DNA of 64,000 nucleotides from Prosthecobacter gellanilyticus (GTDB taxonomy: Bacteria; Verrucomicrobiota; Verrucomicrobiia; Verrucomicrobiales; Verrucomicrobiaceae). A program made the position numbers and the translations under genes. The notes under the pieces were generated by a model that ran no database searches, was not told the DNA's origin, and saw nothing but the letters and a program-made list of their open reading frames with translations. Positions 47,201 through 63,346 of this stretch are shown here, piece by piece. The DNA is taken from contig NZ_BKAG01000002.1 in assembly GCF_007992435.1 (NCBI RefSeq), positions 1 through 64,000 of the forward strand, read 5' to 3'. Each line of letters opens with the position of its first letter. Within the stretch, counting starts at the first letter, position 1.

Positions 47201-48646
47201 CAAAGCTCCGGCGGGGATGCTGTAGGTGGCGGCGACTTCTGTGACGACCTGTACCGTGAAGGTGGCCTGCGTATGGGCCGCAAGCGTGCCGCCGCTGAAG
47301 GTCAGCACCTGACCTGCGATGCTGCTTTGAAATCCAGCCGAGACAGCACTGTCACTGACGTAGTTTAAACCAACGGGTAGAGTGAGTTGCCCGCCCACTT
47401 GATAGGCCGCGCCGCCTCCGCTGTTGTGAACACGCACATGCAGCAGAAAACGTTCACGCGTGTAGGGCAGGGAAGGTGGCGGAATCTGCGGGCCGAAGCC
47501 CGATGGGCCGGCCACCTCGGCCAGAAGGTCAGGGCGCTGCGGCGCAAAGGCGATGCCGCGAAAGGCTTTGTTCGTATCGGCTGTTGCGATCAAGGTCGGC
47601 ATGCCGCTCAATGTGCCTGTGCTGCCACTCGTGTCTGAGAGGCTCACGATCTCGCCACCACCAGTGGCCGTCCCGCCACCTTTGCGCACGGCATAAAGGT
47701 TGACTCCAGGACTTGGGAGTTGAAAAACGCTTGCTGTTAGGCCTCGATACGCATCTGCCGCAGCGCCAGCACTGCCGCGTGCCGTCCATGTGGTGCCATC
47801 AAAGCTGTATTTGAGGATGCCACCATTGGTGGCCTCATCATCAGCGATGTAGAGTGTGTCGACACCAACCACGGTCTCACTCAAATCAAGCAGCACAAAG
47901 GCGTTCGGGCTGAGATTCACGGGATAGCCCGGCAGATTGGTGATGATTTGGCTCGCCGTGTTAGGCAGTCCCGAACCCACCGGACCGAGACGAGCCGTCG
48001 AACCATTGCCTGATGAAACATAGAGCTGCCCATTAAAGATCCCAGGCTGGCGGAGGTTGTTGTTCGTGGTGCTGAGTTGCAGTGATGTCGTGGCTCCAAG
48101 CGCGGCCACATGCCGCACACCACCGGTGGTACTGTTGCCATTGCCTGCGACCCAGAACTGCGCGCCATCCGCGGAGCACACACCACGGAAGTTGTTCGCG
48201 CTATACGCATCCGTGAGGCCTGTGCTGGTGTCGATACCCCCCAGCGCATCCACGCGACCGATCACACGATTCACAGCACTCGATGCAGTGCCGGTCAGCG
48301 ATGAGGAATGCGGCGGCGTGGCATCATAACCCGGCAGCACAATGTATCTGCCATCCGCCGAGAGAGTCATCTGGCCTTCCGAGCCCGCCGTGCCGCTGGC
48401 GATGAGCCTCTTCTGCATGCCGTTCACCGTCGTCGGCAGGGCGATGGACTGCACCAGCGTGCCCGTGGGTGTGTATTCATCCAGGAAGACCGGATTGCCC
48501 GTGTTGACCAGCGAGCCCGTGCCGGTGCCGATGCGATAGATGACGAGATTTCCTGCGGCGAAAGGCGCGGCCAGCAGACGTGCAGAGACAAAGTGAATCG
48601 AGGCCAGCATCAACGCTGCCAGCCACATAGGGGGAAGGTTTTTCAT
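38273..48646 (-). CDS. Giant secreted surface protein: beta-propeller, DUF11, Calx-beta, lamin-tail, CotH and repeat modules
   Basis: 3457 residues with a signal peptide. Order by residue: propeller-like region (about 30-370); CARDB/DUF11-like repeats (to about 760); Calx-beta (about 770-870); Ig-like and InlB-like parts (to about 1060); a beta domain ending in FGWPEG near 1304; lamin-tail domain (1440-1560, LVISEVMSNNEHTI then DWLEIYNPG); PA14-like region (1690-1780); chitobiase-C-like module (about 1985); CotH kinase-like domain (about 2100-2390, LYLNGQYWGIYDSDERPEANF and FFAHDFEHTFFN); second chitobiase-C-like module (about 2545). The DUF11-Calx-beta-Ig-InlB-FGWPEG block is repeated at 2790-3457. 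CotH proteins phosphorylate proteins in spores; here the role is unknown. Likely surface attachment or polymer handling. Confidence 0.8.
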   Translation of the reverse strand: MKNLPPMWLAALMLASIHFVSARLLAAPFAAGNLVIYRIGTGTGSLVNTGNPVFLDEYTPTGTLVQSIALPTTVNGMQKRLIASGTAGSEGQMTLSADGRYIVLPGYDATPPHSSSLTGTASSAVNRVIGRVDALGGIDTSTGLTDAYSANNFRGVCSADGAQFWVAGNGNSTTGGVRHVAALGATTSLQLSTTNNNLRQPGIFNGQLYVSSGNGSTARLGPVGSGLPNTASQIITNLPGYPVNLSPNAFVLLDLSETVVGVDTLYIADDEATNGGILKYSFDGTTWTARGSAGAAADAYRGLTASVFQLPSPGVNLYAVRKGGGTATGGGEIVSLSDTSGSTGTLSGMPTLIATADTNKAFRGIAFAPQRPDLLAEVAGPSGFGPQIPPPSLPYTRERFLLHVRVHNSGGGAAYQVGGQLTLPVGLNYVSDSAVSAGFQSSIAGQVLTFSGGTLAAHTQATFTVQVVTEVAATYSIPAGALVMDPLSLVDESDEANNSSTTTPSFDVNHAADLKVSLSAPANALTGSAGFDYTIIAGNEGLSDAPSVRVSFTIPAGLSFVSASGAGFNASEDSGVVHLDGSLIADSSATLTVRVTASADGTYTAPVGAAVIGQIPLTLLIESDLTNNTSTTAATTELLTSDLAITNVANGTFQAGDSASYTINVSNTGTGNTQGLVAITETLPAGLTATSLTGTGWTITQGTGATVSATRSDALLPGQSYPPLTLNVTIATNAPTSVISTAHVSGGGDSIAANNSASATTSVLGAGPGVISLSSASYIAHEEDVAVSINLTRTGGRTGEVMVTFATSNDTASAGSDYTSVNAIVPFADDQISRTVLVPLLGDNANEPNETFNITISAPTGDAALGAITTASVFLLEPDSADPKLTLKDPKPNQRIDEGAVSASGEVSDNKQVRRVQVKLNNGSFADAQLTPGNGGKTNFTLPLAPTPGLNNLVVKASDFRGNETDELLRSFTYVVKRPLTLSLVSAGSSTVSIKPNEALTALELGKSYSLTAKPVSGKVWNGWSSPQLTLSDAQRLNTTLNFTMTEGLSITANFADNPFHVSVIGDFSGLVRADGGTTPSHDNEGAIKIKVTPGGSFSGTLQIAGTNLPFNGVLDTAGTARFGNELAISTLLSRSPRAGYVLAFAADLSLSGSKKITGTLRRQTREGSVPLSTLEVNRHAYDGKTPATSVTDTFYTWAMPAQAQTNGLTASQFPQGDSIGSIHVSKSGAAAIAGVLADGTSFTASAALSAGQDLPLFVPLEKGAGSINGWLHVDHTRPDTDVSGTAMHWFKPVIADAHYYPFGWPEGVTLSLIGARFTVPVGESVLPDLAEVSGANALLSFAQGGLVGLLGKELAITPTNVVTKIPASDPSYELKLTAKTGQYTGKFDLGTGAFASFTGVILQKGEHRRGFGHFLTAKPKVISGTGLSGVVELRTKFNPRLTLVISEVMSNNEHTITDEDGAYSDWLEIYNPGLTEVDLTDWCLTDSASNLAKWRFPAVTLGPKQLLLVWASSKNRRVPGQPLHTNFNLLAGGEYLALVRPDGVTIEHEFSPMFPALANDESYGIHFSGRPALVQGAAVKYHLPANNSLGTTWTAKEFNDASWSKGKTGLGFGVGVPGFTVRQVASKPAFGAVLSIAACEALLALPKGHGNILSEATVIAPYINYLGDGAEGRYGDNLSLPNGTAEPYAFKAMGIITIPVAGNYVFGLNSDDGGRIKIDGVAVMTDDSNHGPLDNLSAPVNLTAGSHTVEIIMWEGGGGDCVEFFAKAGTDTAWNADFKLVGGPGGLPVVTNPPSSISTASNVISTNLQSAMQGKRAGCYARLPFTVTSVGSLTGMTLRMRYNDGFVAWLNGTEIARRNAPLTPVFDSTATATRSAAETLTEEVIDLSAQISLLSGGTNVLAIHGMNDSVSDSSFLILPELSTTAGLAANAVFFRPGDTAITATPGTMNGVPAFDGIVAPLVFSQKHGFYDKPISLAITTATGGASIRYTLDGSTPTATHGTLYNGPVAISKTSIVRAIGYRSGYEPSALLTQSYFFLNDVIRQSANGARPSTSWPAGTVNGQVSDYGMDPDIVNGTNPEIGGVDKVKSALKSIPTVSIVTDLPNLFSQDTGIWVNPYGRGEAWERPASVELIGDSGPNGGFDINCGLRLRGGFSRSGDNPKHALRLFFRSEYGASKLNYPLFGNEGVSSFDKIDLRTAQNYSWSFGGDGNNTFIREESTRELQGAMGQPYSKSRYYHLYLNGQYWGIYDSDERPEANFAESYIGGDADDYDTVKGEQDQGYVTGVTDGNLDAWEQLRVKARAHSADPSNANFFAISGKAADGVTATSDPVLLEVDNLIDYMLLTFWSGNLDGATSAFLGDSRANNWFASRNRTGNFGGFRFFAHDFEHTFFNVDEDRTGPFANGNPADVSTYNPMFIHHDLRPNLEYRMMWADRVQKHLFGGGALVAENVQTRMRARKTLLDKVIIAESARWGDSKRGNDTPLNRLNWIGAVDYVIENYVPERGSRVIAQLRADDLYPSFDAPELAQNGGPFPSGSELMITGHGGIMYYTLDGSDPRQIGGTLNPAAQVYTSSTSTIQAVPLTQTWKYLADGSDQDSAWRASVFDDSTWSSGPGELGYGDGDEATIVSFVDANASAAGMQKNATTYFRTSFEIADATGLTAAALQVKYDDGVILYLNGTQVARSPNMPATAAHNYYTNVSAPNESAFFTFNIDPALLVTGTNVLAAEVHQAAPDSSDVSFQASLSVTRTDTPTPLFLTGTGSRTLKVRARQNDEWSALVEAVFDVSPAPDLTVSLNPPSFPFAGGSFQLVVPVKNIGSAPTSGLIEVTSPLPVGAQSVLLGMAAGWTSHLNPDGSTTARRSTPLQPGETSSLILIVDTWSTAPNYMPFSATVAGGGEMIRSNNSASLVVRVNSQGTSHFTFANNVFAAPEADGSVTVTVVRTGTRTGAASVRLSTSNGSAISPGDYQAQEVIVEFADGEDAREVQIGLTPDDRKEIHKYFTVKLDNPTGGTSIEGVGQARVTILEEDTNAPTVSLTTPSEAARIVLANVLLKGTARDDKGLGKVQVALNNGSFTDVVTTLDAKGTSGTFTAEVPALAGNNTVRIRAVDARGLISNEVISQFTFVPLRPLTVNILPAGSGDVSITPGGKLSQLEVGKSYTLTAKPKTSFLFDHWSGPSINTPSQSLTFTMSEGLVISANFAGSAVGTANAGAYQGLVVSDAGVPRLQESHGIISLNLTPAALLSGSLQLGEVKYPFAGELHPDGSARFGKERSISLIIPRVGRASLVLSLQINLAMHTLTGHVGEQTRTGVAPLCAFNGARKRALLASNSPLLGNGGKYQVTLTQVNPVAGTLGYPGNAASMLKGTLAKSGVLTLAGILTDGSKVTATCDLLESNQMPFYELLDGKAGSLATVLNWSEATPGFTVTGGLWFKPVTNQGLSPFGWPEGLVFSIEGEP

Positions 48647-48842
48647 GAATACCGTGACAGATTTATCACGAAAGACGGTGCGGTGCGAGTCCCGCGAGAA
48701 GGGACTTCACTCTCCCCTGGCGAGGCTAGCCGGCCATACGCAACAGACATGCTCAGGCCAAGGAACCTGCATTTTGCAACACGGCACTTCTCGGGAAGCT
48801 TCGGTCCGTCAGAGAAACCTAAACACGCAAAACCTCAACACT

Positions 48843-49235
48843 ATGAAACTCACCTCAAACATCGCCGCCGCCCTTCTTGGTCTCGCCTTCGTGACCTTCG
48901 GGCTGAACTTCTTCCTGAACTTCATCCCCATGCCGCCGGACAATTCTCCGGCCGACGCTCCTCACAAACTCTTCATGGCTGCCCTCTACCCCACGGGCTA
49001 CCTGACTTTTGTGAAGGTGCTGGAGATCCTCGGCGGCGTGCTCGTGGCCCTGCCGAAGACTCGCAACTTCGGTCTCCTGGTCCTTGGCCCCATCGTGATT
49101 AATATTCTGGCCTTCCAGATCTTCCTCACCAAGGGCGCAGGCCTGACCCAGCCTCCGGTGATCGCCGTGGCCGTCCTTTCCGCCTTCGTTCTCTTCACAG
49201 AGCGCAAGGCTTTCGCCAACCTGCTCAAGGCCTGA
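48843..49235 (+). CDS. DoxX-like small membrane protein
   Basis: 130 residues from the ATG at 48843, with four hydrophobic helices (NIAAALLGLAFVTFGLNFFLNF; YLTFVKVLEILGGVLVALP; FGLLVLGPIVINILAFQIFL; PPVIAVAVLSAFVLF). The LEILGGVLV segment is typical of DoxX-like proteins. They sit in the inner membrane; some act in oxidative stress with thiol or quinone redox. The leader is CA-rich with no Shine-Dalgarno sequence. The 196 bases upstream hold no other gene. Confidence 0.75.
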   Translation: MKLTSNIAAALLGLAFVTFGLNFFLNFIPMPPDNSPADAPHKLFMAALYPTGYLTFVKVLEILGGVLVALPKTRNFGLLVLGPIVINILAFQIFLTKGAGLTQPPVIAVAVLSAFVLFTERKAFANLLKA

Positions 49236-49319
49236 GTCGCTACAAGCCGCGGGGCCGTATGTCTTCACGGCATCGGCCTCATCCCTCCCGGTCTCTAAAC
49301 TTCACCCTTTTTTGCTGTG

Positions 49320-49808
49320 ATGAATACCGCCATCCATCCTGGAGTCCGCATTGGCCACGTGCATTTGAAAGTGGCTGACCTGGAGCGCGCGCTGGCCTTT
49401 TACTGCGGTGTGCTCGGGTTTCAAATCACCCAGCGCTACGGCACCCAGGCCGCCTTTGTGTCCGCTGGGGGCTACCATCACCACATCGGCCTGAACACCT
49501 GGGAGAGCAAAGGCGGCAAGGCACCGCCTCCGGGCACCACGGGACTCTACCACGCCGCGATCCTGTATCCTGATCGAGCCTCTCTCGCTGATGCGCTGAA
49601 GCGCCTGATCCAGCATCAAGTCCCCCTGGATGGTGCCTCCGATCATGGCGTGAGCGAGGCCCTCTATCTCCGCGATCCTGATGGCAACGGTCTCGAGCTC
49701 TACGTGGACCGCGAGCCCGCCGAGTGGCCTCGCGATTCTCGCGGCGAAATCGCCATGACCACCGGGCCGCTGGATCTCGAGTCGTTGCTCAAAGCCGCTC
49801 CTCTGTGA
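49320..49808 (+). CDS. VOC-family (glyoxalase/extradiol dioxygenase-like) protein
   Basis: 162 residues from the ATG at 49320; a GTG one codon earlier is possible. The vicinal-oxygen-chelate fold is clear: RIGHVHLKVADLERALAFYCGVLGFQ, HHHIGLNTW, LYHAAILYPD and YLRDPDGNGLELYVDR, giving the His/Glu metal ligands. It resembles catechol-2,3-dioxygenase-like CatE proteins. Substrate unknown. Confidence 0.88.
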   Translation: MNTAIHPGVRIGHVHLKVADLERALAFYCGVLGFQITQRYGTQAAFVSAGGYHHHIGLNTWESKGGKAPPPGTTGLYHAAILYPDRASLADALKRLIQHQVPLDGASDHGVSEALYLRDPDGNGLELYVDREPAEWPRDSRGEIAMTTGPLDLESLLKAAPL

Positions 49809-49893
49809 GAGCCGCCCCGCTCCATCCCACCTTCGCTTCCTCTCATTTCCCCCAAACCGCACCCTAACTCAAACCCGCAACGCACCCACTCCT

Positions 49894-50571
49894 ATGAGCC
49901 ACTACCACCAACTCTTCACCGCTGAAGATGCCGCTGTCGTCTTCATCGATCATCAGCCCCAGATGACCTTTGGCGTGTCCAACATTGATCGCGCCACCTT
50001 GATCAACAACGTCACCCTTCTCGCCAAGGTCGCGAAGGAGTTCAATGTCCCCACCGTGCTGACCGCCGTGGAGACAGAGAGCTTCTCCGGCTACCTCTGG
50101 CCCCAGCTCCTGGATGTGTTTCCCGGCCAGCCGGTGATCGAACGCACCAGCATGAACTCCTGGGATGATGCTGGTTTCCGCAAGGCCATCGAAGCCACAG
50201 GCCGCAAGAACATCATCATGACCGGGCTCTGGACCGAAGTCTGCGTCACGTGGCCGACGATCGAGATGATCGGCGCCGGATATAACATCTACGTCGTGGA
50301 TGATTGCTGCGGAGCCACCTCTCCCGCGGCTCATGAGGCTGCGCTCAGCCGCATGGTGCAGGCCGGTGCCACACGTCTCACCACCATCCCGGCCCTGCTG
50401 GAATTCCAGCGCGACTGGAAGAACCGCGAACATTACAACAACCTTATGGGCATCCTCAAACAGCACGCCGGAGCCTATGGCGTGGGTGTGGAGTATGCCT
50501 ACACCATGGTGCACAAGGCACCTCAGTCCGCTCAGTCGCCTCATGTCGTGACCGGCGGAGCCAAGCATTGA
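49894..50571 (+). CDS. Isochorismatase-family cysteine hydrolase (YcaC-like)
   Basis: 225 residues. DHQPQ near the start gives the catalytic Asp, and TEVCVTWP the nucleophile Cys. ERTSMNSWDDAGF in the middle and FQRDWKNREHY near the end resemble YcaC. YcaC is a cytoplasmic hydrolase of unknown substrate. It lies in a plus-strand cluster with VOC, ABM, porin and amidohydrolase genes. Confidence 0.88.
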   Translation: MSHYHQLFTAEDAAVVFIDHQPQMTFGVSNIDRATLINNVTLLAKVAKEFNVPTVLTAVETESFSGYLWPQLLDVFPGQPVIERTSMNSWDDAGFRKAIEATGRKNIIMTGLWTEVCVTWPTIEMIGAGYNIYVVDDCCGATSPAAHEAALSRMVQAGATRLTTIPALLEFQRDWKNREHYNNLMGILKQHAGAYGVGVEYAYTMVHKAPQSAQSPHVVTGGAKH

Positions 50572-50659
50572 TAAAACTCACCGTGAACAGCGCGGGCGGA
50601 TCCTGGCCAGCCGCACAGCCCGCCCGCGTCTTGTTCTCTGATTTTCACCCCTTCTTCTC

Positions 50660-51193
50660 ATGTCTGTTCATGTTGCCATCACTCGTAGCGTGCGCCCCGG
50701 CTGCGAGGCTGAGTTTCAGCAGGCGCTCACGGAATTTTTTCAAAGTTCGTTCAGCCACGGTGGTGTGATCGGTGCCAGCCTGCTGCTGCCTCCGCCGGGT
50801 TCGGACTCGCGTGAGCACGGCATCTTGCGCACCTTTGCCAGCGAGGCGGAGCGGGACGCCTTCTACGCATCTCCGGAATTTCAGCAGTGGGAAAAGCGCG
50901 CGCAAACACTCACCGAGGGCGAGGCTCAGTATCGTGAATTGCATGGCCTTGAGGCCTGGTTCCGCGAGCCGGGTTCGCCCAAGCCTCCCCGCTGGAAGAT
51001 GGCCGTGGCCACTCTGGCAGGCGTGTATCCCACCAGCTTGTTGTTAGGTGCTTTGGTCATTCCGAATCTGCATAGTCTGCCGCATCCGGTCGCCTCATTG
51101 ATTGTCGGCGCGTGCATGGTCACCATGCTCACCTGGGTCGTGATGCCGCTGGTCACGAAGCTGCTGCATCGCTGGCTGCATTCCAACGTTTGA
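50660..51193 (+). CDS. Antibiotic biosynthesis monooxygenase (ABM) domain with membrane tail
   Basis: 177 residues. Residues 1-100 form a ferredoxin-like ABM fold (HVAITRSVRPGCEAEFQQALTEFF...HGILRTFASEAERDAFYASPEFQQW). The C-terminal part has two membrane helices (about 112-134 and 140-165), so the domain is membrane-bound in the cytoplasm. ABM domains act on quinone-like compounds in several cases. The gene lies 16 bases before the porin gene. Confidence 0.82.
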   Translation: MSVHVAITRSVRPGCEAEFQQALTEFFQSSFSHGGVIGASLLLPPPGSDSREHGILRTFASEAERDAFYASPEFQQWEKRAQTLTEGEAQYRELHGLEAWFREPGSPKPPRWKMAVATLAGVYPTSLLLGALVIPNLHSLPHPVASLIVGACMVTMLTWVVMPLVTKLLHRWLHSNV

Positions 51194-51208
51194 TTCACGT
51201 CCGCATTT

Positions 51209-52546
51209 ATGAGCAACCCCTTGCGACATCTTCTGGCTCTGATGGTGTCGTTCTCAGGGGCGGCCAATGCGGCTGACGATCCCTGGGATCGGGTGCCGCC
51301 GCCTGCCGAGTCGCTTTTCAAAGCGCACGTTGATCTGGATGAAGCTGGGCAGAGCAGGCTCAGCTTCGGTGGCCATGCGCGCTCGATGTTTGAGTATTAT
51401 CGGAACCGGGACTTCGGGTTCGCGCCGATCCGTGATGACGCCTGGGTGCACCATCGTGTGCAGGTCTTCGGTGTCTGGCAGGAGGGCGATGACTTCAAGC
51501 TGATGACCGAACTGACCTGGGGCGAGATGCAAGGCATGCGCAATGAGCAGTCTCCACCTGACGAAGATCAGCTGGATCTGCTGCAGCTCTATGCGCAGGC
51601 TCGCCTGGAGCTCGGTGCGCGCTCATCTCTCGTGCTTCGGGCAGGTCGGCAGACTCTCTACTATGGTTCGGGCAGGCTTCTCGCGCACCGCGAAGGTGCG
51701 AACCAACGGCTGGTGCATGATGCCTTGCGTCTCTCCTGGCGGATGCCGGATTGGAACGTGGACGCCATCCTGGCTTCGCCGGTCCGCATTGGTCCGGGGG
51801 AGTTCGACAATGCCTCGTATTTTCAGCGAACGCTACTTTGGGGCCTCTATGCCACGGGACCCTCGGTCTTCGGCGAGGGGCATGGCATGGATATCTACTA
51901 TCTGGGCCGTCGCCTCGATAGCTCGCCGCTGAGTGATGGGCAGCAGGAGATCCGTCACACCTTCGGCACACGCCTTTTTGGCAAGGAAGGGCCGTGGAGT
52001 TATAACCACGAGTTCATTCTGCAGACGGGTGACGTGGCGGACCGGGACATCCTGGCCGGAGCGGTGAGCCTGGGGCTGGGGCACACCTGGAAAGACCAGC
52101 TTTTCCAACCAACACTCGGTTTCCGCGGTGACCTGATCTCCGGCGGGCAGGGAAGTGGTGAGATCAATACCTTCGACCCCTTGTTTCAGGCTAACAATTA
52201 TTTCAACGAGGGCGGCTTCGTCTCGCCCTCGAATCTCTACAATCTCAATCCTCGCCTCAGTCTTCAGCTCACGAAAAGCCTGAGCCTGGATCTCGGAGTG
52301 AACTTCCTGTGGCGGTTTGATACCGGGGATGCTGTCTACACACCGCCCTTCAATGCCGTGGCTGGTGCTGCGCCGAATGGCGAGCGCTATCTGGGCACAG
52401 CCTACAATGCGGCGCTGGCCTGGGACCCGCATTCATCGTTTGATCTTTCCATCGGATTCACCCACCACGAAGCAGGCCCCTCGCTCACGAGCGTCGGTGG
52501 CCGGAGCGTGGACTATTTGCAAATCGCTGCTCGCATCGAATTTTAA
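51209..52546 (+). CDS. Alginate-export-type outer-membrane porin
   Basis: 445 residues with a signal peptide (MSNPLRHLLALMVSFSGAANA). The body is amphipathic beta strands. LRAGRQTLYYGSGRLLAHREGANQRLVHDALRLSW is typical of the alginate-export domain (AlgE/OprD-like barrels), and the chain ends in an aromatic residue (ARIEF), the outer-membrane signal. It would pass a small anionic or sugar-like molecule across the outer membrane; the substrate is unknown. It starts 16 bases after the ABM gene and ends 19 bases before the amidohydrolase, so these form one transcript. Confidence 0.85.
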   Translation: MSNPLRHLLALMVSFSGAANAADDPWDRVPPPAESLFKAHVDLDEAGQSRLSFGGHARSMFEYYRNRDFGFAPIRDDAWVHHRVQVFGVWQEGDDFKLMTELTWGEMQGMRNEQSPPDEDQLDLLQLYAQARLELGARSSLVLRAGRQTLYYGSGRLLAHREGANQRLVHDALRLSWRMPDWNVDAILASPVRIGPGEFDNASYFQRTLLWGLYATGPSVFGEGHGMDIYYLGRRLDSSPLSDGQQEIRHTFGTRLFGKEGPWSYNHEFILQTGDVADRDILAGAVSLGLGHTWKDQLFQPTLGFRGDLISGGQGSGEINTFDPLFQANNYFNEGGFVSPSNLYNLNPRLSLQLTKSLSLDLGVNFLWRFDTGDAVYTPPFNAVAGAAPNGERYLGTAYNAALAWDPHSSFDLSIGFTHHEAGPSLTSVGGRSVDYLQIAARIEF

Positions 52547-52565
52547 CCTCAACTCACCTTATCCC

Positions 52566-54413
52566 ATGTCACTCGAAACCACTCAGAAGGCAGACTTGAT
52601 CCTCTACAATGGCCGCATCAGTACGCTGGACCCTGATTACCCGGAGGCTGGAAACATCGCCATCGCAGGTGGTCGCATCATCGCGGTCGATGAGGGTGAG
52701 GAGTATGCGGACATCACCACGCCGCAGACGAAGCGCATCGATCTGAAAGGCCGTCGCGTGGTGCCGGGTCTCTATGATTCGCACCTGCATGTCATTCGCG
52801 GCGGTCTGAACTACAATCTGGAGCTGCGCTGGGATGGCGTGACTTCTCTGAGTGATGCCCTGGCACTGCTGAAGATCCAGGCGGATCGCACACCCGCACC
52901 ACAGTGGGTTCGTGTGGTCGGTGGCTGGAACGAATTTCAGTTCAAAGAAAGGCGCCTGCCGACACTGGATGAACTCAACGCAGCAGCTCCTGACACGCCG
53001 GTCTTCATCCTGCATCTCTACTGCCAGGCCATGCTGAACCGCGCCGCGCTTAAGGCCGTGGGTTATGACAAGAACACGCCAAACCCGCCTGGAGGCGAGA
53101 TCCAGCGTGACAAGAATGGCGAGCCCACCGGACTTCTCATTGCCAAACCGAACGCGCTCATTCTTTACGCAACGCTCGCCAAAGGTCCCAAGCTGCCCAT
53201 CGAGTATCAGTACAACTCCACCCGCCAGTTCATGCGCGAGCTGAACCGGCTTGGCCTAACCAGCGTTTGTGATGCGGGTGGCGGCTTTCAGAACTACCCG
53301 GATGACTACGAGGTCATCACCGAGCTGCACAAGCGCGGCGAGCTGACTCTGCGCATCGCCTACAATCTCTTCACGCAAAACAAAGGTGGGGAGAAAGGTG
53401 ACTTTGAGCGCTGGATCGGCATGACCAAGCCGGACACGGGGGATGACTATTATCGGGTGAATGGAGCAGGCGAGATGCTGGTCTTCAGCGCGGCGGATTT
53501 TGAGGACTTCCTGGAACCTCGTCCTGATCTGCCTGCCACGTTGGAGACGGAGTTGAAAGACGTCGTCACCCTGCTCGCGGAGAACCGTTGGCCTTTCCGT
53601 TTGCACGCCACCTATGACGAGAGCATCACACGCTTCCTAAATGTCTTTGAGGAGGTCAACCGTCATGCGCCGCTCGAAGGCCTGCATTGGTTCCTTGATC
53701 ACTGCGAGACCATCAGTGACCGCAATATTGAGCGCTTGAAGGCTCTCGGCGGCGGCATCGCCATTCAGCATCGCATGGCCTTCCAGGGCGAGTATTTTGT
53801 CGATCGCTATGGCAAGGCAGCAGCGGAGCGCACCCCACCCGTGCGCCGCATGCTGGAGATGGGCGTGCCCGTCGGTGCGGGAACAGATGCCACACGCGTG
53901 GCGAACTACAATCCATGGAACTCGCTCTACTGGCTGGTCAGCGGCAAGACGGTCGGGGGTTTGAGCCTGTACACGGAGAAGAATCGTCTAAGCCGTAAAG
54001 AAGCTCTCGAACTCTACACCCATGGCAGCGCCTGGTTCAGCCGTGACGAAGAGAAAAAAGGCGTGCTCAAACCCGGCCAGCTAGCGGACCTCATCGTGCT
54101 CAGTGATGACTACTTCCAGGTGCCGGAGGAGGAGATCAAAGGGCTGCACAGCGTGCTGACCATCCTCGGCGGGAAGCCGGTGTATGCCGAGGCAGAGTTC
54201 AAAGAGCACTCGCCGCCTGACCTGCCCGTGACTCCGGACTGGAGTCCGGTGGCGAAGTTTGGGGGCTATGGCGCACCAGGATTTACCAAGGCGGAACGCA
54301 GCATCAGCTTTGCCCCCCACATCGCGCCGGTCATGAATCGCAGTGGTTCAACGATTCAGGCCACGCCGCTCCCGCAATTGTGGGGCAGTGGGTGCGACTG
54401 TTACGCCTTCTAA
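52566..54413 (+). CDS. YtcJ-like metal-dependent amidohydrolase
   Basis: 615 residues from the ATG at 52566. The composite amidohydrolase fold is clear: ILYNGRISTLDPDYPEAGNIAI, LKGRRVVPGLYDSHLHVIRGG (His-X-His type metal site), FRLHATYDES, HWFLDHCETIS and GVPVGAGTDATRVANYNPW with the catalytic Asp. The C-terminal beta part reads LKPGQLADLIVLSDDYFQVP. YtcJ-like enzymes hydrolyse amides or formylated compounds; no substrate can be named. The C-terminal 60 residues include CDCYAF. Confidence 0.9.
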   Translation: MSLETTQKADLILYNGRISTLDPDYPEAGNIAIAGGRIIAVDEGEEYADITTPQTKRIDLKGRRVVPGLYDSHLHVIRGGLNYNLELRWDGVTSLSDALALLKIQADRTPAPQWVRVVGGWNEFQFKERRLPTLDELNAAAPDTPVFILHLYCQAMLNRAALKAVGYDKNTPNPPGGEIQRDKNGEPTGLLIAKPNALILYATLAKGPKLPIEYQYNSTRQFMRELNRLGLTSVCDAGGGFQNYPDDYEVITELHKRGELTLRIAYNLFTQNKGGEKGDFERWIGMTKPDTGDDYYRVNGAGEMLVFSAADFEDFLEPRPDLPATLETELKDVVTLLAENRWPFRLHATYDESITRFLNVFEEVNRHAPLEGLHWFLDHCETISDRNIERLKALGGGIAIQHRMAFQGEYFVDRYGKAAAERTPPVRRMLEMGVPVGAGTDATRVANYNPWNSLYWLVSGKTVGGLSLYTEKNRLSRKEALELYTHGSAWFSRDEEKKGVLKPGQLADLIVLSDDYFQVPEEEIKGLHSVLTILGGKPVYAEAEFKEHSPPDLPVTPDWSPVAKFGGYGAPGFTKAERSISFAPHIAPVMNRSGSTIQATPLPQLWGSGCDCYAF

Positions 54414-56844: not shown

Positions 56845-56882
56845 ACGCCCCGGACCTCATGCAGGTCCGGGGCGTTTTTATT
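56845..56882 (+). terminator. Rho-independent terminator of katG
   Basis: A perfect 13-bp stem (ACGCCCCGGACCT / AGGTCCGGGGCGT) with a 5-nt loop is followed by a T tract. It lies 32 bases after the katG stop, and separates katG from the next gene. Confidence 0.92.
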
Positions 56883-56919
56883 GAGGAGAGTGCTCTCCGA
56901 AAAAATAATTTCCGAAAGT

Positions 56920-56947
56920 TGTCCTCCGGCCGCGATCCCGTTCGTCG
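56920..56947 (+). promoter_or_regulatory. ECF-type promoter before the SRPBCC gene (TGTCCT-N17-CGTCG)
   Basis: TTGTCCT (TGTCCT at 56920-56925) and CGTCG (56943-56947) are 17 nt apart. The same two boxes with the same spacing, and a shared AT-rich upstream TTCYGAAA pattern, occur on the minus strand at 63295-63322 before the ECF42 operon. The start codon lies 28 bases after the -10 box. Confidence 0.75.
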
Positions 56948-56974
56948 TGATGTTGAACCCCCAACACCAAACCT

Positions 56975-57433
56975 ATGAAAACCGATACCCATACCATCTG
57001 CCTCCATCGCGTCCTGCGTGCCAAGCCTGAGCGTGTTTACCGCGCCTTTCTGGATGCCGATGCCAAGTGCAAGTGGCTGCCTCCCTTTGGATTCACCGCC
57101 AAGGTGCATCACATCGATGCCCGCGTGGGCGGCACCTACCGCATGTCCTTCACGAACTTCACCACGGGTTCCAGCCACTACTTCGGCGGCACTTATACCG
57201 AGCTCACACCGAATGAGCGAATCCGCTACACAGACAAGTTCGAGGACGCGAACCTGCCCGGCGAGATGCATGTCACGGTGGAGTTGAAGGAAGTCTTCTG
57301 CGGCACTGAGATCAAGGTCACGCAGGAAGGCGTGCCTTCCATCATCCCAGAGCACGGCTGCTATATGGGCTGGCAGGAATCACTCATCCAGCTCGCGCAG
57401 CTCGTTGATCCTGAGATTCCGGACGGCATGTGA
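56975..57433 (+). CDS. SRPBCC/AHSA1-family protein
   Basis: 152 residues. START-like fold: HRVLRAKPERVYRAFLDADAKCKWLPPFGF, VGGTYRMSFTNFTTG, IRYTDKFEDANLPGEMHVTVEL and a C-terminal helix MGWQESLIQLAQLV. Members bind small hydrophobic ligands. ECF42-type regulons often contain such proteins, and this gene carries a copy of the promoter found in front of the ECF42 operon. Confidence 0.85.
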   Translation: MKTDTHTICLHRVLRAKPERVYRAFLDADAKCKWLPPFGFTAKVHHIDARVGGTYRMSFTNFTTGSSHYFGGTYTELTPNERIRYTDKFEDANLPGEMHVTVELKEVFCGTEIKVTQEGVPSIIPEHGCYMGWQESLIQLAQLVDPEIPDGM

Positions 57434-57536: not shown

Positions 57537-60092
57537 ATGCCTGCCCCTACCGCGCTCCCCATCTGGAAGATCCACGCTGACATCCTGCGCACGCTGCAGG
57601 TGGGCAATCGTCTGGTGCTCGTGGCTCCCACGGGCTCTGGCAAAACCACCCAGGTGCCGCAGATGCTTCTCGATGGAGGAATCGCGGGTGATAAAATGAT
57701 CGTGGTGCTGCAACCTCGCCGCGTCGCCGCTCGCACGGTGGCCACGCGTGTGGCCTGGGAGCGTGAGAGCAAGCTCGGTGCCGAGGTGGGCTATCAGATC
57801 CGGTTTGATGACCACACCAGTGTAGGCACGCGCATCTGCTTTGTGACAGAAGGCATTCTGCTGCGCTGGCTGCAGGATGACTCGACGCTGGCCAACATCG
57901 GCGCGGTGGTCTTCGATGAGTTTCATGAGCGGAACTTGCTCAGCGATGTTGCCCTCGCGTTGGTGAAGAACCTGCAGCAAAGTCAGCGCCCGGATCTCGT
58001 CATGGTGGTCATGTCGGCCACACTCGATGCGGAGCCGGTGGCTGCCTATCTGAACTTGTGCCCGATCCTTGTCTCCGAAGGCCAGAGCTTTCCTGTTGAA
58101 GTCGAATACCTGTCTCATCCTGACTTACGTCCGCTCACGCTGCAGGCGGCGGAGGCGGTGGAGCGCATCATCCATGAACGTAACCCCGGCGATATTCTCG
58201 TCTTCATGCCCGGACGCGGCGAGATCAATGGCACTCTTGATGCACTGCGAGGCCTGAGAACTCAGGAGCGTGTGTCATGCATCCCCTTGCATGGAGAGCT
58301 CGAACCTCAAGAGCAAGACCGCGCCTTTGCGCCTAACTCTCTGCGCAAGGTCATCGTCGCCACCAACGTCGCCGAGACCAGCATCACCATTGATGGCATT
58401 CGTCACGTGGTGGACAGCGGTGTCGCGCGTGTGGCTCGCTATGATGCGGAGCGTGGCATCGGCACTCTCTTGCTTGAGCCCATCAGCCGGGCCAGTGCCG
58501 ATCAGCGCAAAGGGCGTGCAGGCCGTACAGCACCCGGGACTTGTCATCGCTTGTGGACCGTGATCGGTCATAAAGACCGTGAGGCGCGTAACACGCCCGA
58601 GATCCAGCGCAGTGACCTCGCGGAGGTCGTCTTGCTGCTGCACTCGCTCGGCATCCGCGAAGCCGCGACGTTTGACTGGCTTGACAAGCCCGACCCGCAG
58701 GCTGTGGAGCGTGCCGAGCGCTTGCTCACCATGCTCGGAGCTTTGCATGAGGAGCAGGGGAATCTCACACCCATCGGCCGCCAGATGCTGCGCCTCCCGA
58801 TGCATCCACGCTACTCACGCATGCTGATCGAGGCCAGCCAGAGAGGCTGTGTGCCTGACGCTGCTCTGTGCGCGGCCCTGGTCAGTGGACGTGACCTGCT
58901 CGCGCGTCTGGATCGTGATGATGCCCAAACCAAAAGTGCGCGTGAGATGTTTGAGGACAGTGAGGACTCTGACTTCATCACGCTCATGCGTGCCTATGAC
59001 TTCGCCAAAGAGAACGGCTTCAGCTTCGAGCGCTGCCGCAGCTATGGCATCAATGCCCAGGTTGCCCGTCAGGTGGAGCAGACGTTTCAGCAGATCTTGA
59101 ATGCAGCCCAGCAGCAGCGTCTGCATGACCGCGATGCTGCACCCGTGAGCGCAGCCAAGAATGAAGAAGCCTTGCGACGCTGCATCATGGCTGGCTTTGC
59201 GGATCAGCTCGCCAAACGGCGCGTGCCCGGCAGGCCTGAGTGCGACCTCACCGAGCACCGGCAAGGCCAGCTTGTTCGTGAGAGCGTGGTGCAGGCTGCC
59301 ACCTTTTTGGTGGCCGCGAATCTGCGAGATGCGCCTTCTCGGGGTGCCAGTTCATTGACTCTGCTCAGTCTCGCCACCAGCGTGAAGCCTGAGTGGATCG
59401 CCGAGATGTTTCCGCAGCATCTGAGCACCACCATCGAGCACCTCTTTGATGCGCAGAACAAGCGTGTCGCCGCCGTGAAACTCGTGCGCTATCGAGATCT
59501 CGTCATTGAGCAGAAAGCGCAGCAGCGCGATCTCGATCCCATCGCCAGCGGTCGTTGCCTCGCTGAAGCTCATCGCGCTGGAGCCTTTGATCTTCCGCTC
59601 ATGGATCATCGGCTGAAGCAGTTCATCGCCCGTGTGAATCTCGTCCACAGCACTTTGCCAGAACTGGAGTTTGCCGCTTTGGATGCAGATGCCATCACCG
59701 CCTGTCTCGCCCGTGCTTTCAAAGGACTCTCACTGGTCAAGGAAGCCCAGGCTGCGCCTCTCATGGCTGCGTTTCATCAACATCTGGCCTCCGGGCAGGT
59801 CAGCTGGCTGGATGAGCTGGTGCCACTCTCCATTCCGTGGACCGATGGCAGCACGGTGAAGCTCTCCTACGTGAACGAGTCGCCAGAAGTGCAGGTGAAG
59901 CTCTATGATTGCTTCGCGCTCAAAGAGCACCCCAGCCTCTGTGAAGGCCGCCTTCCGGTGCTTCTTAGCCTCTGCACTCCCGATGGCAAACGTCTGGCGA
60001 CTATCAAGGATTGGCCTGCCTTCCTGACACGCGAGTGGCCGAAGCATCGCCAAGCTATCTCCAAGAAGTTCCCGGGCGTCTTGTGGCGTTAA
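57537..60092 (+). CDS. DExH-box ATP-dependent RNA helicase (HrpA/HrpB-like)
   Basis: 851 residues. Walker A is APTGSGKTT at about 30, motif Ia LQPRRVAAR, motif II DEFHERN (DEFH rather than the usual DEAH), motif III MSATLD and motif VI SADQRKGRAGRTAPG. After the second RecA domain come the helicase-associated domain (FDWLDKPDPQAVERAERLL...LGAL) and a C-terminal domain (LPVLLSLCTPDGKRLATIKDWPAFL) like HrpB. Probably acts on structured RNA or in mRNA processing. The stop codon shares TTAA with the stop of the convergent sigma-factor gene. Confidence 0.88.
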   Translation: MPAPTALPIWKIHADILRTLQVGNRLVLVAPTGSGKTTQVPQMLLDGGIAGDKMIVVLQPRRVAARTVATRVAWERESKLGAEVGYQIRFDDHTSVGTRICFVTEGILLRWLQDDSTLANIGAVVFDEFHERNLLSDVALALVKNLQQSQRPDLVMVVMSATLDAEPVAAYLNLCPILVSEGQSFPVEVEYLSHPDLRPLTLQAAEAVERIIHERNPGDILVFMPGRGEINGTLDALRGLRTQERVSCIPLHGELEPQEQDRAFAPNSLRKVIVATNVAETSITIDGIRHVVDSGVARVARYDAERGIGTLLLEPISRASADQRKGRAGRTAPGTCHRLWTVIGHKDREARNTPEIQRSDLAEVVLLLHSLGIREAATFDWLDKPDPQAVERAERLLTMLGALHEEQGNLTPIGRQMLRLPMHPRYSRMLIEASQRGCVPDAALCAALVSGRDLLARLDRDDAQTKSAREMFEDSEDSDFITLMRAYDFAKENGFSFERCRSYGINAQVARQVEQTFQQILNAAQQQRLHDRDAAPVSAAKNEEALRRCIMAGFADQLAKRRVPGRPECDLTEHRQGQLVRESVVQAATFLVAANLRDAPSRGASSLTLLSLATSVKPEWIAEMFPQHLSTTIEHLFDAQNKRVAAVKLVRYRDLVIEQKAQQRDLDPIASGRCLAEAHRAGAFDLPLMDHRLKQFIARVNLVHSTLPELEFAALDADAITACLARAFKGLSLVKEAQAAPLMAAFHQHLASGQVSWLDELVPLSIPWTDGSTVKLSYVNESPEVQVKLYDCFALKEHPSLCEGRLPVLLSLCTPDGKRLATIKDWPAFLTREWPKHRQAISKKFPGVLWR

Positions 60093-61354
60093 ACCGCGCT
60101 AATCTCACGAATGCGACGCTGGATGAAATCCTGCTCCGAAGGTGTGGTGGCCAGGTTTCCAGCTTGGCGGAAATGCGTGAGTGCCTCCGCTGTGCGGCCA
60201 AGCTCAGCTGCGAAGGCACCGCGGATGGCGTGGTAAAGATGATAGGCTTCCAGCGTGCTGCGATCCGTGATCTTGCTGATCTCCGCGAGGCCTTCTTTGG
60301 GGCCGTGCAGACGTGCCACAGCGACCGCGCGATTCAGCGCCGTGATCGGCGAGGGGCGGATCACCATCAACTGATCATAGAGCGAGAGAATGCGCTGCCA
60401 GTCGGTGCTGGCTTCATCTGGTGAGAGACAGTGGCAGGCGGCGATGCCGGCCTCCAGGTGGTAGTGACTGACATCATCGCCGATGCTGGCATTGGCGAGA
60501 GCCTGCAGTCCTTGGTGAATCAAGCGCTGATCCCACACGGCACGATTTTGCTCATGCAGACGCATGAGACGTCCCTCGCTGTCCGTGCGTGCGGCGAGGC
60601 GAGAAGCATTCAGACACATCAGGGCGAGCAGCGCAAACACGCGAGGCTGCCGGGTTGCCGAATGCGCGAGCAGCAGGTTCACAAGCCGGATGGCTTCGTG
60701 ACATAAATCATGACGCACCAAGGTGGTGCCGCTGGAGGATTTGTAGCCTTCATTGAAAAGCAGGTAGATGGCTCCGAGCACACCTTCGAGCCTTTCCGGA
60801 AGCTCAGCCACTCCAGGCACGGTGAAGGGCAGCGCCAGTTCACGGATGAGCTGGCGCGCACGCACGAGGCGTTTCGAGATCGCAGCCTCGCTGGTGAGAA
60901 AGGAACTGCCGATCTCCGCCGCGCTCATGCCGCAGACGGTTCTCAGAGCGAGTGCTGTCTGCGCCTCCATGGAGAGCTGCGGATGGAAGCACACGAAGAG
61001 CATCCTCAACGTGTCATCCGCGATCTCATCGTCTGTCGGCATGGGAGAGTCTCCTGAAGACAGCCAGCGACCGGATTCAGCAGCGATGCTGGTTTCTTTC
61101 TCATTCCAGCGCTGCTCGCGGCGCAGCAAATCCAGAGCGAGATTCTTCGCAGTCTGCATGAGCCAGGCCCCGGGATTGTCAGGAATGCCACGATAAGGCC
61201 AGGTCTGCAGCGCCTTCACCATGGCCTCCTGCACCACGTCCTCCGCGAGTTGCAGGCGATGCGTCCCTAGCTGCGCCACCAGCGTCGCGATCAAGCGACC
61301 GCTTTCGCGTCTGAACAAGTCGTCGGTTAATCCGGCTGGGGAATCCGCATGCAT
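60089..61354 (-). CDS. ECF42-type sigma factor with C-terminal helical repeat domain
   Basis: 421 residues. Sigma-70 region 2 (about 15-85, AEDVVQEAMVKALQTWPYRGIPDNPGAWLMQTAKNLALDLLRRE) and region 4 (about 110-170, MSAAEIGSSFLTSEAAISKRLVRARQLIR) are followed by a long TPR-like domain (about 185-420: LYLLFNEGY, AIRLVNLLL, ITALNRAVAVARLHG). This arrangement, beside YciI/DGPF proteins, defines the ECF42 group, in which the C-terminal domain is thought to control activity in place of a separate anti-sigma factor. TGAGG lies six bases before the start, one of few Shine-Dalgarno-like leaders here. It is the last gene of the five-gene operon. Confidence 0.9.
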   Translation of the reverse strand: MHADSPAGLTDDLFRRESGRLIATLVAQLGTHRLQLAEDVVQEAMVKALQTWPYRGIPDNPGAWLMQTAKNLALDLLRREQRWNEKETSIAAESGRWLSSGDSPMPTDDEIADDTLRMLFVCFHPQLSMEAQTALALRTVCGMSAAEIGSSFLTSEAAISKRLVRARQLIRELALPFTVPGVAELPERLEGVLGAIYLLFNEGYKSSSGTTLVRHDLCHEAIRLVNLLLAHSATRQPRVFALLALMCLNASRLAARTDSEGRLMRLHEQNRAVWDQRLIHQGLQALANASIGDDVSHYHLEAGIAACHCLSPDEASTDWQRILSLYDQLMVIRPSPITALNRAVAVARLHGPKEGLAEISKITDRSTLEAYHLYHAIRGAFAAELGRTAEALTHFRQAGNLATTPSEQDFIQRRIREISAV

Positions 61355-61446: not shown

Positions 61447-61854
61447 TTAGGCTGCGGCTGCCTCTGTGTTAGCCTTGACGTCGGCCATGGGTCCGCAGAC
61501 ATCCGCCACGGGACGGACCTCGATCTGCACGCCATAAGCCAGCACCGGGCACTCCTGGGCTAGGCGCACCGCTTCGGCAGTGCTGTCCGTGGAGAGCAGG
61601 AAGTAGCCGGCGATGGCTTCCTTGGACTCAGCGAAGACTCCGTCCGTCACCACTGTGCCTCGGGCACCCGTGACGAGCTTGCCCTCTTCCATCAGAGGCT
61701 GGGCACCGCGCAGCAGGCCCTTGCTGCGAAGGCCATCGACCCAGGCGTAGAAGGCCGTCATTGCATTCTGCAGTTCAGCGGGGGACAGAGAGCTGCCCCA
61801 ATGAGTGCCACGGATGAAGAGCAAATGTTCGCCGACAGGTTGTTGGTTGTTCAT
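61447..61854 (-). CDS. YciI/DGPF-family protein
   Basis: 135 residues. The family signature DGPFAExKE appears as TDGVFAESKEAIAGYF, with Val for Pro. LLFIRG near the start and the alpha/beta core (AVRLAQECPVLAYGVQIEVRP) fit the ferredoxin-like YciI fold. Usual partners of ECF42 sigma factors; thought to be small-molecule enzymes or sensors. Its start overlaps the stop of the next YciI gene by four bases. Confidence 0.85.
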   Translation of the reverse strand: MNNQQPVGEHLLFIRGTHWGSSLSPAELQNAMTAFYAWVDGLRSKGLLRGAQPLMEEGKLVTGARGTVVTDGVFAESKEAIAGYFLLSTDSTAEAVRLAQECPVLAYGVQIEVRPVADVCGPMADVKANTEAAAA

Positions 61855-62231
61855 GACTGGGGTGTTTCGTTGGTGATGTCGTAGGCGGAGGCTCGCACGC
61901 CTTCCAGAGGCCGGATTTCATAACTGAGGCCGAGGGCAGCACATGGGTTCTGCGCTCCATATTCCGCCGCCTGCTTCAGGCTGGAGGCGATGATGAACCA
62001 ATAGCCGCCGATGATCTCCTTGCCCTCAGCGAAGGCTGAATCGATGACGTAGCCGGTCTTCGAAGCCACGGCGCGCTCGGTGGTGAGGCGGCTGCCGTGT
62101 TTCATGCGGCCATGGGCCACGTGATCATTGATCCAGTCGTAAAACTTGGTGATCGCCGTTTCGATCTCTTCCTTGCTCGCGGTGCTGTCCCACTGTCCGC
62201 GGGACAGCACGAGGTATTCCTGAGTTTCCAT
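61851..62231 (-). CDS. YciI/DGPF-family protein, second copy
   Basis: 126 residues from the ATG at 62231 (METQEYLVLSRGQWD). The motif reads IDSAFAEGKEIIGGYWF, so both Gly and Pro of DGPF are replaced. Clearly related to the downstream copy but well diverged. Four bases overlap the next gene (ATGA), which indicates coupled translation. Confidence 0.82.
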   Translation of the reverse strand: METQEYLVLSRGQWDSTASKEEIETAITKFYDWINDHVAHGRMKHGSRLTTERAVASKTGYVIDSAFAEGKEIIGGYWFIIASSLKQAAEYGAQNPCAALGLSYEIRPLEGVRASAYDITNETPQS

Positions 62232-62253: not shown

Positions 62254-62790
62254 TTACGGAGCAGGCTTGGCAGCGACGAGCTGTGAGAGGCTTGCCAGTC
62301 CCTTTTCAAACTCAGGACCGCACATCTTCTCGCAGTCCATGACGAGGCTCATGAGTTTGCCGACGTAGTTGTTCTCACCAAACATCGCCCAGGTCACGAC
62401 GGTCTTGTCGCCCTCAGGTTTGAGCGTGAACTCGACGGTGCTCACGCCTTCCATGGGCTTCTTCCAGTCCATGCGCTCGCGGACAAGTTCGTTAGGCTTG
62501 CTCTCCGTGATGGTGGCGGAGCCTTCGCCGGTCAGCTCGCCAGCCCAGCTGGAGACAGCGCCCACGCCGGCCTCTGGACCACTGTAGGTCATCTTGGCCT
62601 GTGGATCCATTTTGGCGAAGGGGTTCCACTCGTTGAACTTCTTGTGGTTGTTCACGTAGTCAAAGAGCACGGCAGGTGGTGCTGCAATGGCAAGACTGCG
62701 CTCCACACGGTAGTGCGGAGTCTTAAAAACCGGGATGACCAGCACCACAGCAAGGATGGCCACGAGGCCGAGAAGGATCTTTTTGATCAT
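62254..62790 (-). CDS. Membrane-anchored SRPBCC-family protein
   Basis: 178 residues. One N-terminal helix (MIKKILLGLVAILAVVLVIPVF) anchors it. The rest is an SRPBCC fold of the polyketide-cyclase type: VERSLAIAAPPAVLFDYVNNHKKFNEWNPFAKMDPQAKM, VEFTLKPEGDKTVVTWAMFGENN. It may bind a small hydrophobic ligand at the membrane. It belongs to the ECF42 operon. Confidence 0.85.
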   Translation of the reverse strand: MIKKILLGLVAILAVVLVIPVFKTPHYRVERSLAIAAPPAVLFDYVNNHKKFNEWNPFAKMDPQAKMTYSGPEAGVGAVSSWAGELTGEGSATITESKPNELVRERMDWKKPMEGVSTVEFTLKPEGDKTVVTWAMFGENNYVGKLMSLVMDCEKMCGPEFEKGLASLSQLVAAKPAP

Positions 62791-62836: not shown

Positions 62837-63241
62837 TCAGGCTTCCGGAGGCATGGCGCTCATGTGGATGAGCTCCCATTGATGACCATCAGGGTCCGCA
62901 AAGCAATGCTGATACATGAATCCATAGTCTTTGGGGCCGGCATAGGAGGTGCCGCCATTGGCCATGGCCTTGGAGACAAGACCTTCCACTTCCTCGCGGC
63001 TTTCGCAGGAGAGGCAGTTCAGCACCTGGGTGGCCTTGCGGGTATCGCAGATCTCACGCGGGGTGAACTCGCGGAACTTGGCATGGGTCAGGGCCATCAG
63101 ATGAATGTGCTCGCTGATCACGATGCACGCGGCAGTGTCGTCTGTGAAAGTGGGATTGTGGCTGAAGCCGAGCGCCTTCCAAAAGGCAAGGGTGCGCGGG
63201 AGGTCGGAGGTGGGCAGGTTGACAAAGATTTGAGTGTTCAT
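62837..63241 (-). CDS. VOC-family protein
   Basis: 134 residues. VOC/glyoxalase fold: IFVNLPTSDLPRTLAFWKALGFSHN, HLMALTHAKFREF and FADPDGHQWELIHMS. It belongs to the group of DGPF-associated VOC proteins often named lactoylglutathione lyase-like. First gene of the five-gene ECF42 operon; the promoter lies 53 bases upstream. Confidence 0.88.
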   Translation of the reverse strand: MNTQIFVNLPTSDLPRTLAFWKALGFSHNPTFTDDTAACIVISEHIHLMALTHAKFREFTPREICDTRKATQVLNCLSCESREEVEGLVSKAMANGGTSYAGPKDYGFMYQHCFADPDGHQWELIHMSAMPPEA

Positions 63242-63271: not shown

Positions 63272-63289
63272 TTGAACCACGCGGTTCAA
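63272..63289. promoter_or_regulatory. Palindrome at the transcription start of the ECF42 operon
   Basis: TTGAACC-ACGC-GGTTCAA, a perfect 7-bp inverted repeat. It lies immediately downstream of the -10 box, so it would cover the transcription start. It may be an operator or a 5' leader hairpin. TGTTGAAC also follows the -10 of the copy at 56920-56947. Confidence 0.5.
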
Positions 63290-63294
63290 CAAGG

Positions 63295-63322
63295 CGACGA
63301 ACGAGTTCCGGCCCGGAGGACA
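63295..63322 (-). promoter_or_regulatory. ECF-type promoter of the ECF42 operon (TGTCCT-N17-CGTCG)
   Basis: On the minus strand TGTCCT (63317-63322) is followed after 17 nt by CGTCG (63295-63299). It repeats the element at 56920-56947. Because the operon ends in the sigma gene itself, autoregulation is likely. Confidence 0.75.
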
Positions 63323-63325
63323 ACA

Positions 63326-63346
63326 TTCTGAAAAAAATTTTCAGAA
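63326..63346. promoter_or_regulatory. AT-rich palindrome upstream of the ECF42 promoter
   Basis: TTCTGAAAA-AAA-TTTTCAGAA, a perfect 9-bp inverted repeat just upstream of the -35 box. The other copy of the promoter has a weaker version (TCCGAAA ... TTTCCGAAA). It may be an UP-type element, an activator site, or part of the terminator of the esterase transcript that ends at 63393. Confidence 0.5.

Follow-up and report, generated by a model that had tools for sequence, protein, structure and literature searches.

The SRPBCC gene considered here follows katG in a 64,000-nt stretch of the Prosthecobacter gellanilyticus genome (hereafter the window, i.e., the whole stretch of DNA that was analysed), which also holds an ECF42 sigma factor gene. 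The sigma gene lies 2.7 kb from the SRPBCC gene on the opposite strand, at the end of a minus-strand cluster with the order VOC, SRPBCC (Polyketide_cyc2), YciI, YciI and sigma factor. The katG product is a peroxidase (PF00141), and a terminator-like structure at 56845-56875 stands between katG and the SRPBCC promoter. The features are listed below by coordinates and strand.

56845-56875 (+): intrinsic terminator-like structure after katG, with a 13-bp stem and a T tail (consensus scan)
56900-56911 (+): A/T tract (UP-element-like) upstream of the -35 element (family conservation)
56920-56925 (+): putative -35 element TGTCCT of the SRPBCC promoter
56941-56946 (+): putative -10 region TTCGTC of the SRPBCC promoter (core CGTC, 56943-56946)
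56953-56957 (+): TTGAA box at the predicted transcription start of the SRPBCC promoter (spacing from Table 1 of PMC6180224, a source used in part)
56975-57433 (+): SRPBCC protein, AHSA1 family (PF08327), 152 aa, the proposed target
60089-61354 (-): ECF42 sigma factor with sigma-70 regions 2 and 4, DUF6596, and Lys161 in the recognition helix
61447-61854 (-): YciI-like protein, ECF42 operon
61851-62231 (-): YciI-like protein, start ATG at 62231 (61851-62228 was used in the scan)
62254-62790 (-): second SRPBCC protein (Polyketide_cyc2), in the ECF42 operon
62837-63241 (-): VOC/glyoxalase-like protein, first gene of the ECF42 operon
63285-63289 (-): TTGAA box, ECF42 operon promoter
63296-63301 (-): TTCGTC (-10 region), ECF42 operon promoter
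63317-63322 (-): TGTCCT (-35), ECF42 operon promoter
63331-63342 (-): A/T tract, ECF42 operon promoter (family conservation)

Before katG, the stretch at 48840-54413 contains genes for a small membrane-type protein without a Pfam match, VOC, isochorismatase and ABM proteins, together with alginate-export-type porin and amidohydrolase genes; the window search placed no TGTCCTCCGG promoter in this cluster. A 3457-aa reading frame at 38273-48646 (-) encodes, by look, a giant surface-type protein.

The sigma factor at 60089-61354 has the make-up of the ECF42 group. It matches PF04542 and PF08281 over the cut-off, i.e., sigma-70 regions 2 and 4 only, and its C-terminal extension of about 200 residues carries DUF6596 (PF20239) at residues 188-289 of 421. 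The operon likewise agrees with that group, having two YCII genes upstream of the sigma gene, VOC and SRPBCC genes as the others, and no anti-sigma gene. The sections of a review used here (PMC8999054) describe the ECF42 extension as TPR-rich, with a YCII-domain neighbour, and state that ECF42 factors are proposed to need a protein interaction of the extension for their activity; this extension and the YCII-domain neighbour are shared with Streptomyces venezuelae ECF42 and Pseudomonas putida ECF-10 (PMC8999054, same sections). TPR matches at E ≤ 0.001 were absent from the window sigma factor, while its paralogue in the genome, SIG_B, has weak ones below the cut-off. The search at 1e-5 returned no solved structure for the whole protein, and regions 2-4 had weak matches to SigL and one other factor only.

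The element TGTCCTCCGG...CGTTCGTC is present at 56920-56946 (+), upstream of the SRPBCC gene, and at 63322-63296 (-), upstream of the ECF42 operon. At both sites, 17 nt separate TGTCCT from CGTC, and TTCGTCG is followed by a common TGTTGAAC (56951-56958 at the SRPBCC site), the full spans being 56920-56958 (+) and 63322-63284 (-). Shuffled windows gave 0.01 matches on average to this pattern. The 29-mer core TTGTCCTCCGG-N9-CGTTCGTCG, with 20 fixed positions, occurs just twice at 0-3 mismatches in the whole genome (7.65 Mb, 137 contigs), one occurrence preceding the SRPBCC gene (56975-57433) and the other the ECF42 operon. The same-spaced match proposed in the first-pass annotation is thus confirmed in its positions and its 17 nt, and it is unique genome-wide at up to three mismatches. 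The upstream likeness claimed along with it, an AT-rich TTCYGAAA, stands in part: an A/T tract at -20 to -9 is in register at both sites (AAAAAATAATTT, 56900-56911; GAAAATTTTTTT, 63342-63331), whereas TTCYGAAA itself lies at -10 to -3 from TGTCCT before the SRPBCC gene (56910-56917) and 14 nt further out, in another register, before the operon (63346-63339). An inverted repeat, TTCTGAAAATTTTTTTCAGAA, at 63326-63346 overlaps the A/T tract of the operon promoter; a regulator site and a weak terminator are two possible roles for it.

The SRPBCC promoter is of the TGTC...-N17-CGTC type, with TGTCCT at -35 rather than TGTCGA or TGTCGG. Using the Sinorhizobium meliloti spacing in Table 1 of PMC6180224 (a source used in part), transcription of the SRPBCC gene would start at ~56955, a placement that assumes the last letter printed in that table to be the start.

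A search of the genome for plain TGTCCT-N15-19-CGTCG was uninformative (29 matches versus 35 for the reversed control), and the fuller element was therefore required. With a longer pattern of 19 positions that includes the start box, three sites emerged at 0-1 mismatch: the SRPBCC site (0), the operon site (1) and C92:8946-8983 (1). The remaining matches were three, each with 3 mismatches, equal to the control number. The C92 site (L029, in the same genome, G000, and outside the window) represents a third ECF42-type promoter, and behind it lies a gene for a lipoprotein-like protein of 180-190 aa without a Pfam match at 0.01, relatives of which stand behind such sites in 13 other places.

To place these sites in a wider context, TGTCCT-N15-TTCGTC was searched in 68 family genomes with the reversed pattern as control, yielding 122 matches versus 26, counts that are not independent because the family genomes are related. 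Genomes carrying an A-type sigma factor (identity to the window sigma of about 50% or more; G028 assigned by a fragment) numbered 43 and contributed 111 matches versus 14 in the control. Three genomes with more distant ECF42 factors only gave 3 versus 1, and the 22 genomes in which no sigma match reached E ≤ 1e-40, and which could still have more distant ECF42 factors, gave 8 versus 11. Across the family genomes, motif enrichment accompanies the sigma gene.

The gene behind each site was taken as the first ORF within 150 nt, with representatives scanned against Pfam and some labels, chiefly the single ones, assigned by hand after the scans. A labelled gene was found behind 93 of the 122 sites, most commonly YciI (24), followed by a lipoprotein-like family (14), the window-type SRPBCC (12), VOC (11), DUF899 (10), 3-dmu-9_3-mt (7), Glyoxalase (3), DUF1428, GFA and Polyketide_cyc2 (2 each), and MatE, AHSA1, RibD_C, SnoaL, GyrI-like and DUF1579 (one each). 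The check proposed in the first-pass annotation was whether YciI, VOC, SRPBCC and DoxX genes dominate. YciI (24), VOC-type (21) and SRPBCC (15) genes account for 60 of the 122 sites; DoxX is unconfirmed as a target, as it was not found as a first gene, and the only scanned DoxX candidate (L153:9077-9475, the gene after a VOC gene) matched below the cut-off. Labelled genes lie behind 91 of 111 sites in A-type genomes versus 2 of 11 elsewhere, the latter two in genomes without a sigma match at 1e-40 (G058 and G062, assemblies of ~460 and ~220 contigs, respectively). The 20 sites of A-type genomes that lack a fitting gene are probably due to chance.

Conservation at the 93 labelled sites extends beyond the searched motif to an A-tract located 9-17 nt upstream of TGTCCT and to a TTGAA box located 7-11 nt downstream of CGTC, and both window sites have both. 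Counting the A-tract as present with at least 7 of 9 A/T at -17 to -9, we found it at 68/93 labelled family sites versus 3/29 unlabelled ones; the TGA of the start box occurred at 75/93 versus 2/29. These counts provide an independent check, since the labels were made without those features. Sites of other ECF42 types in the family (n = 18) had the A-tract in 17 cases and TGA in 10. Among 25 sites from other lineages, A-tract and start box each occurred at five (5/25), so that neither is a general feature.

Relatives of the SRPBCC gene were recovered from 29 of the 68 family genomes (1e-20). In 15 genomes, the relative is inside an ECF42 gene cluster on the same strand as the sigma gene; in 12, the window included, it is lone, without an adjoining A-type sigma gene. 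The other 11 lone loci showed no A-type sigma gene in the stretch covered, up to ~6 kb on either side (G062 and G058 being fragments). TGTCCT-N15-TTCGTC stands within ~130 nt upstream of 11 of the 12 lone genes, and the motif before the gene is conserved in relatives with the sigma factor, as in a member of an ECF42 regulon. The exception, a single case, is G033: its gene is preceded by TATCCT with nothing recognisable as a -10 part, and its genome gave no sigma match at 1e-40. At 16 in-cluster loci (L108-L123), the exact motif was found at 10, a TGTCTT variant at 2 and neither at 4; among the last, the contigs of L113 and L119 end within the cluster, and L110 and L121, with several kb of upstream sequence covered, lack a TGTC[CT]-type site. 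At L122 (G028), a TGTCTT-type site runs into the beginning of the SRPBCC match and the sigma gene is split in two, pointing to either a deletion or an assembly fault. In a protein tree (148 columns, many forks unresolved), the lone genes and those inside operons fall in different places; the idea that the gene arose once, from an ECF42 operon, was dropped, and we claim no direction.

This conservation bears on whether the SRPBCC gene might instead be transcribed mainly from a housekeeping promoter or by read-through from katG, the ECF42-like element being a relic. A sigma-70-like TTGAGG-17-AATAAT at 56881-56909, just upstream, matches at 9 of 12 positions, a score for which shuffles average 0.3 in the same stretch. 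Against it stand the terminator-like structure after katG, the retention of the ECF42 element in 11 of 12 lone relatives despite differing surroundings, and the 0 mismatches of the window site to the extended consensus. We regard this explanation as quite unlikely. The first-pass annotation had also pointed to the placement beside a peroxide-detoxifying gene. A functional link between katG and the SRPBCC gene is unsupported and was dropped, given that katG was seen within ~6 kb of the SRPBCC gene at 3 of the 12 lone loci, the window included, and that the terminator-like structure intervenes.

TGTCGA is the motif known for ECF42 promoters, including those of S. venezuelae and P. putida ECF-10. 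The genome studied here encodes a second DUF6596 sigma factor, SIG_B, on the same contig (~C2:80261-81508; L034:16261-17508, minus strand). SIG_B resembles the window sigma in its sigma-70 regions 2 and 4, its DUF6596 and its yciI neighbours, and differs in having Gln at the position of Lys161 and a TGTCGA-N17-CGAC promoter. Its locus (L034:15299-17508; C2:79299-81508) begins with the sigma gene, followed by two yciI genes, and the promoter lies between sigma and yciI, as it does at 6 of 8 SIG_B loci (L034, L124, L167, L168, L169 and L171).

Residue 161 of the window sigma is Lys in 52 and Gln in 53 of 105 ECF42 rows (one locus is counted twice in the 105 and the 53), and the Lys set forms one clade (SH-aLRT 99). 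Loci with Lys factors (n = 52) have TGTCCT only in 36 cases, both kinds of promoter in 1 (L116) and neither in 15; for the Gln rows (n = 53), TGTCGA only was found in 33, both kinds in 1 and neither in 19. The Gln locus with both kinds belongs to G002, where an SRPBCC gene with a TGTCCT promoter sits beside the Gln factor and a Lys-type factor is encoded elsewhere in the genome. L345 is an exception: its site reads TGTCCA, and the only DUF6596 factor of its genome is Gln-type. As the Lys/Gln split falls on one supported clade, it may have arisen just once, and the pairing of residue with promoter does not amount to many replicates. Furthermore, 24 of 421 alignment columns separate the two groups nearly or fully, making Lys161 a candidate by position and not by statistics. 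We propose that Lys161 may read the CT of TGTCCT. In a by-eye alignment with the SigW and sigma-E helices, residue 161 presumably corresponds to Thr171 of SigW and Ser172 of sigma-E. Thr171 of SigW is among the residues making purine-specific contacts with the -35 element, according to the part of PMC6713349 used here. A comparable -10 code (CGTC versus CGAC) set by residues of sigma region 2, sought by eye in the sigma alignment, was not clean and was rejected.

The same data weigh on the idea that SIG_B, and not the window sigma, drives the SRPBCC gene. SIG_B is on the same contig ~24 kb from that gene, and in the relative G002 a SIG_B gene is divergent beside the SRPBCC gene. Nevertheless, six of the eight SIG_B loci have TGTCGA-N17-CGAC promoters, Lys-type loci go with TGTCCT and Gln-type loci with TGTCGA, and the G002 SRPBCC promoter is itself TGTCCT in a genome that also has a Lys-type factor, all of which makes control by SIG_B very improbable.

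The likeness of the two window sites beyond the core is mildly unusual: their 15-nt spacers are identical at 10/15 positions, a level that, among the 93 labelled sites, 2.4% of between-genome pairs and 1.0% of within-genome pairs attain. The first-pass annotation had called the SRPBCC promoter a second copy, but duplication is unsupported. That both sites stem from one duplicated or mobile stretch of DNA, and are not promoters kept independently of each other, is disfavoured and the least credible of the alternatives: spacer (10/15), upstream (19/40) and downstream (15/25) identities are reached by only 2.4%, 3.7% and 3.9% of between-genome labelled-site pairs, yet the up- and downstream likeness is in large part accounted for by positions conserved among the 93 sites, within-genome pairs are in general no more alike than between-genome pairs (4.99 versus 5.16 spacer matches), and the genome has no further copies at up to three mismatches.

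The promoter association is also seen in other phyla. From 460 confirmed SRPBCC relatives in a collection of named genomes, the best 80 (66-82% identity) were considered, and 25 of these have TGTC-N19-CG[AT]C 40-130 nt upstream, compared with 14 of 4800 random windows from the same loci (0.3%). The 25 span Pseudomonadota, Planctomycetota, Verrucomicrobiota, Fibrobacterota and Binatota. DUF6596 occurs in the genomes of 23 of these 25, versus 30 of the 55 of the best 80 that lack the strict motif (Fisher p = 0.0008, without correction for relatedness). TGTCGA prevails at the proteobacterial and planctomycete sites, whereas the four verrucomicrobial ones are TGTCCT (3) and TGTCCC (1). Records titled Klebsiella pneumoniae (L297) and Akkermansia muciniphila (L342) carry the SRPBCC gene as well; both are metagenome bins, and the Klebsiella pneumoniae name may be wrong.

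Comparison with S. meliloti RpoE10, an ECF42 factor, is drawn from part of PMC6180224. There, RpoE10 overexpression raises SMc01149, encoding a hydrophobic-ligand domain protein, SMc01148, SMb20475 (glyoxalase-like) and SMb20474, with TGTCGG promoters before SMc01149 and SMb20475; yciI, which precedes rpoE10 as the first gene of its own operon, is not raised. The two systems share a long C-terminal extension, a yciI gene adjoining the sigma gene, TGTC..-N17-CGTC promoters and distal targets of the hydrophobic-ligand-domain and glyoxalase-like kinds. They differ in phylum and in the -35 element (TGTCGG there, TGTCCT here), and the part of that paper used here makes no mention of the A-tract and TTGAA box for the S. 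meliloti promoters. The kind of system is known, and the TGTCCT promoter code with its link to a sigma clade appears, from sequence comparison, to be a variant for which we found no earlier description. The open-access collection searched yielded no paper on TGTCCT as a promoter of an ECF sigma factor, so that the variant may nonetheless have been published elsewhere, and none on a Prosthecobacter sigma factor and its promoter; by title and abstract, it yielded no related paper on TGTCGA with an ECF sigma factor.

Taken together, the SRPBCC gene at 56975-57433 is very probably a remote target of the ECF42 factor, as suggested in the first-pass annotation. This suggestion gains support from the co-presence of motif and sigma gene, the YciI, VOC and SRPBCC genes behind 60 of 122 sites, the in-cluster relatives, the decayed promoter of G033 without a sigma match (one case), and the S. 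meliloti ECF42 promoters in the part of PMC6180224 used here. With high confidence, we interpret 56900-56957 as a promoter that would be used by RNA polymerase carrying the ECF42 sigma factor at 60089-61354, which would also read the promoters of its own operon (63322-63285) and of C92:8946-8983. In this promoter, the A/T tract may serve as an alpha-CTD site, followed by TGTCCT, 17 nt, CGTC, and TTGAA at the predicted start. In the presence of a signal, the operon (VOC, SRPBCC, two YciI and sigma), presumably as one transcript, would be switched on with the lone SRPBCC gene and the lipoprotein-like gene, whose products may act in small-molecule binding or detoxification. Contact between Lys161 and the CT of TGTCCT would keep this regulon apart from that of SIG_B (Gln; TGTCGA-N17-CGAC). 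A broader reading, which we hold with about as much doubt as conviction, is that a verrucomicrobial ECF42 clade switched its -35 specificity from TGTCGA to TGTCCT together with a Gln-to-Lys change at 161, so that one cell holds two insulated regulons, both with an upstream A-tract and the CT type also with a TTGAA box at the start site, and that the SRPBCC family of the window was recruited repeatedly by ECF42 factors in several phyla, in both lone and in-operon form.

In the literature covered, some of it in part, S. meliloti is the one organism with reported ECF42 targets outside the operon of the factor itself. Here, the comparative signal points to a small regulon, with three promoters in the genome, and to a variant of the promoter code that follows a single residue of the recognition helix. 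As a second ECF42 factor is naturally paired with it in the same genome, promoter insulation between paralogous sigma factors becomes directly testable, and the repeated link between SRPBCC genes and ECF42 promoters across phyla may offer a handle on the role of these widespread, poorly understood sigma factors.
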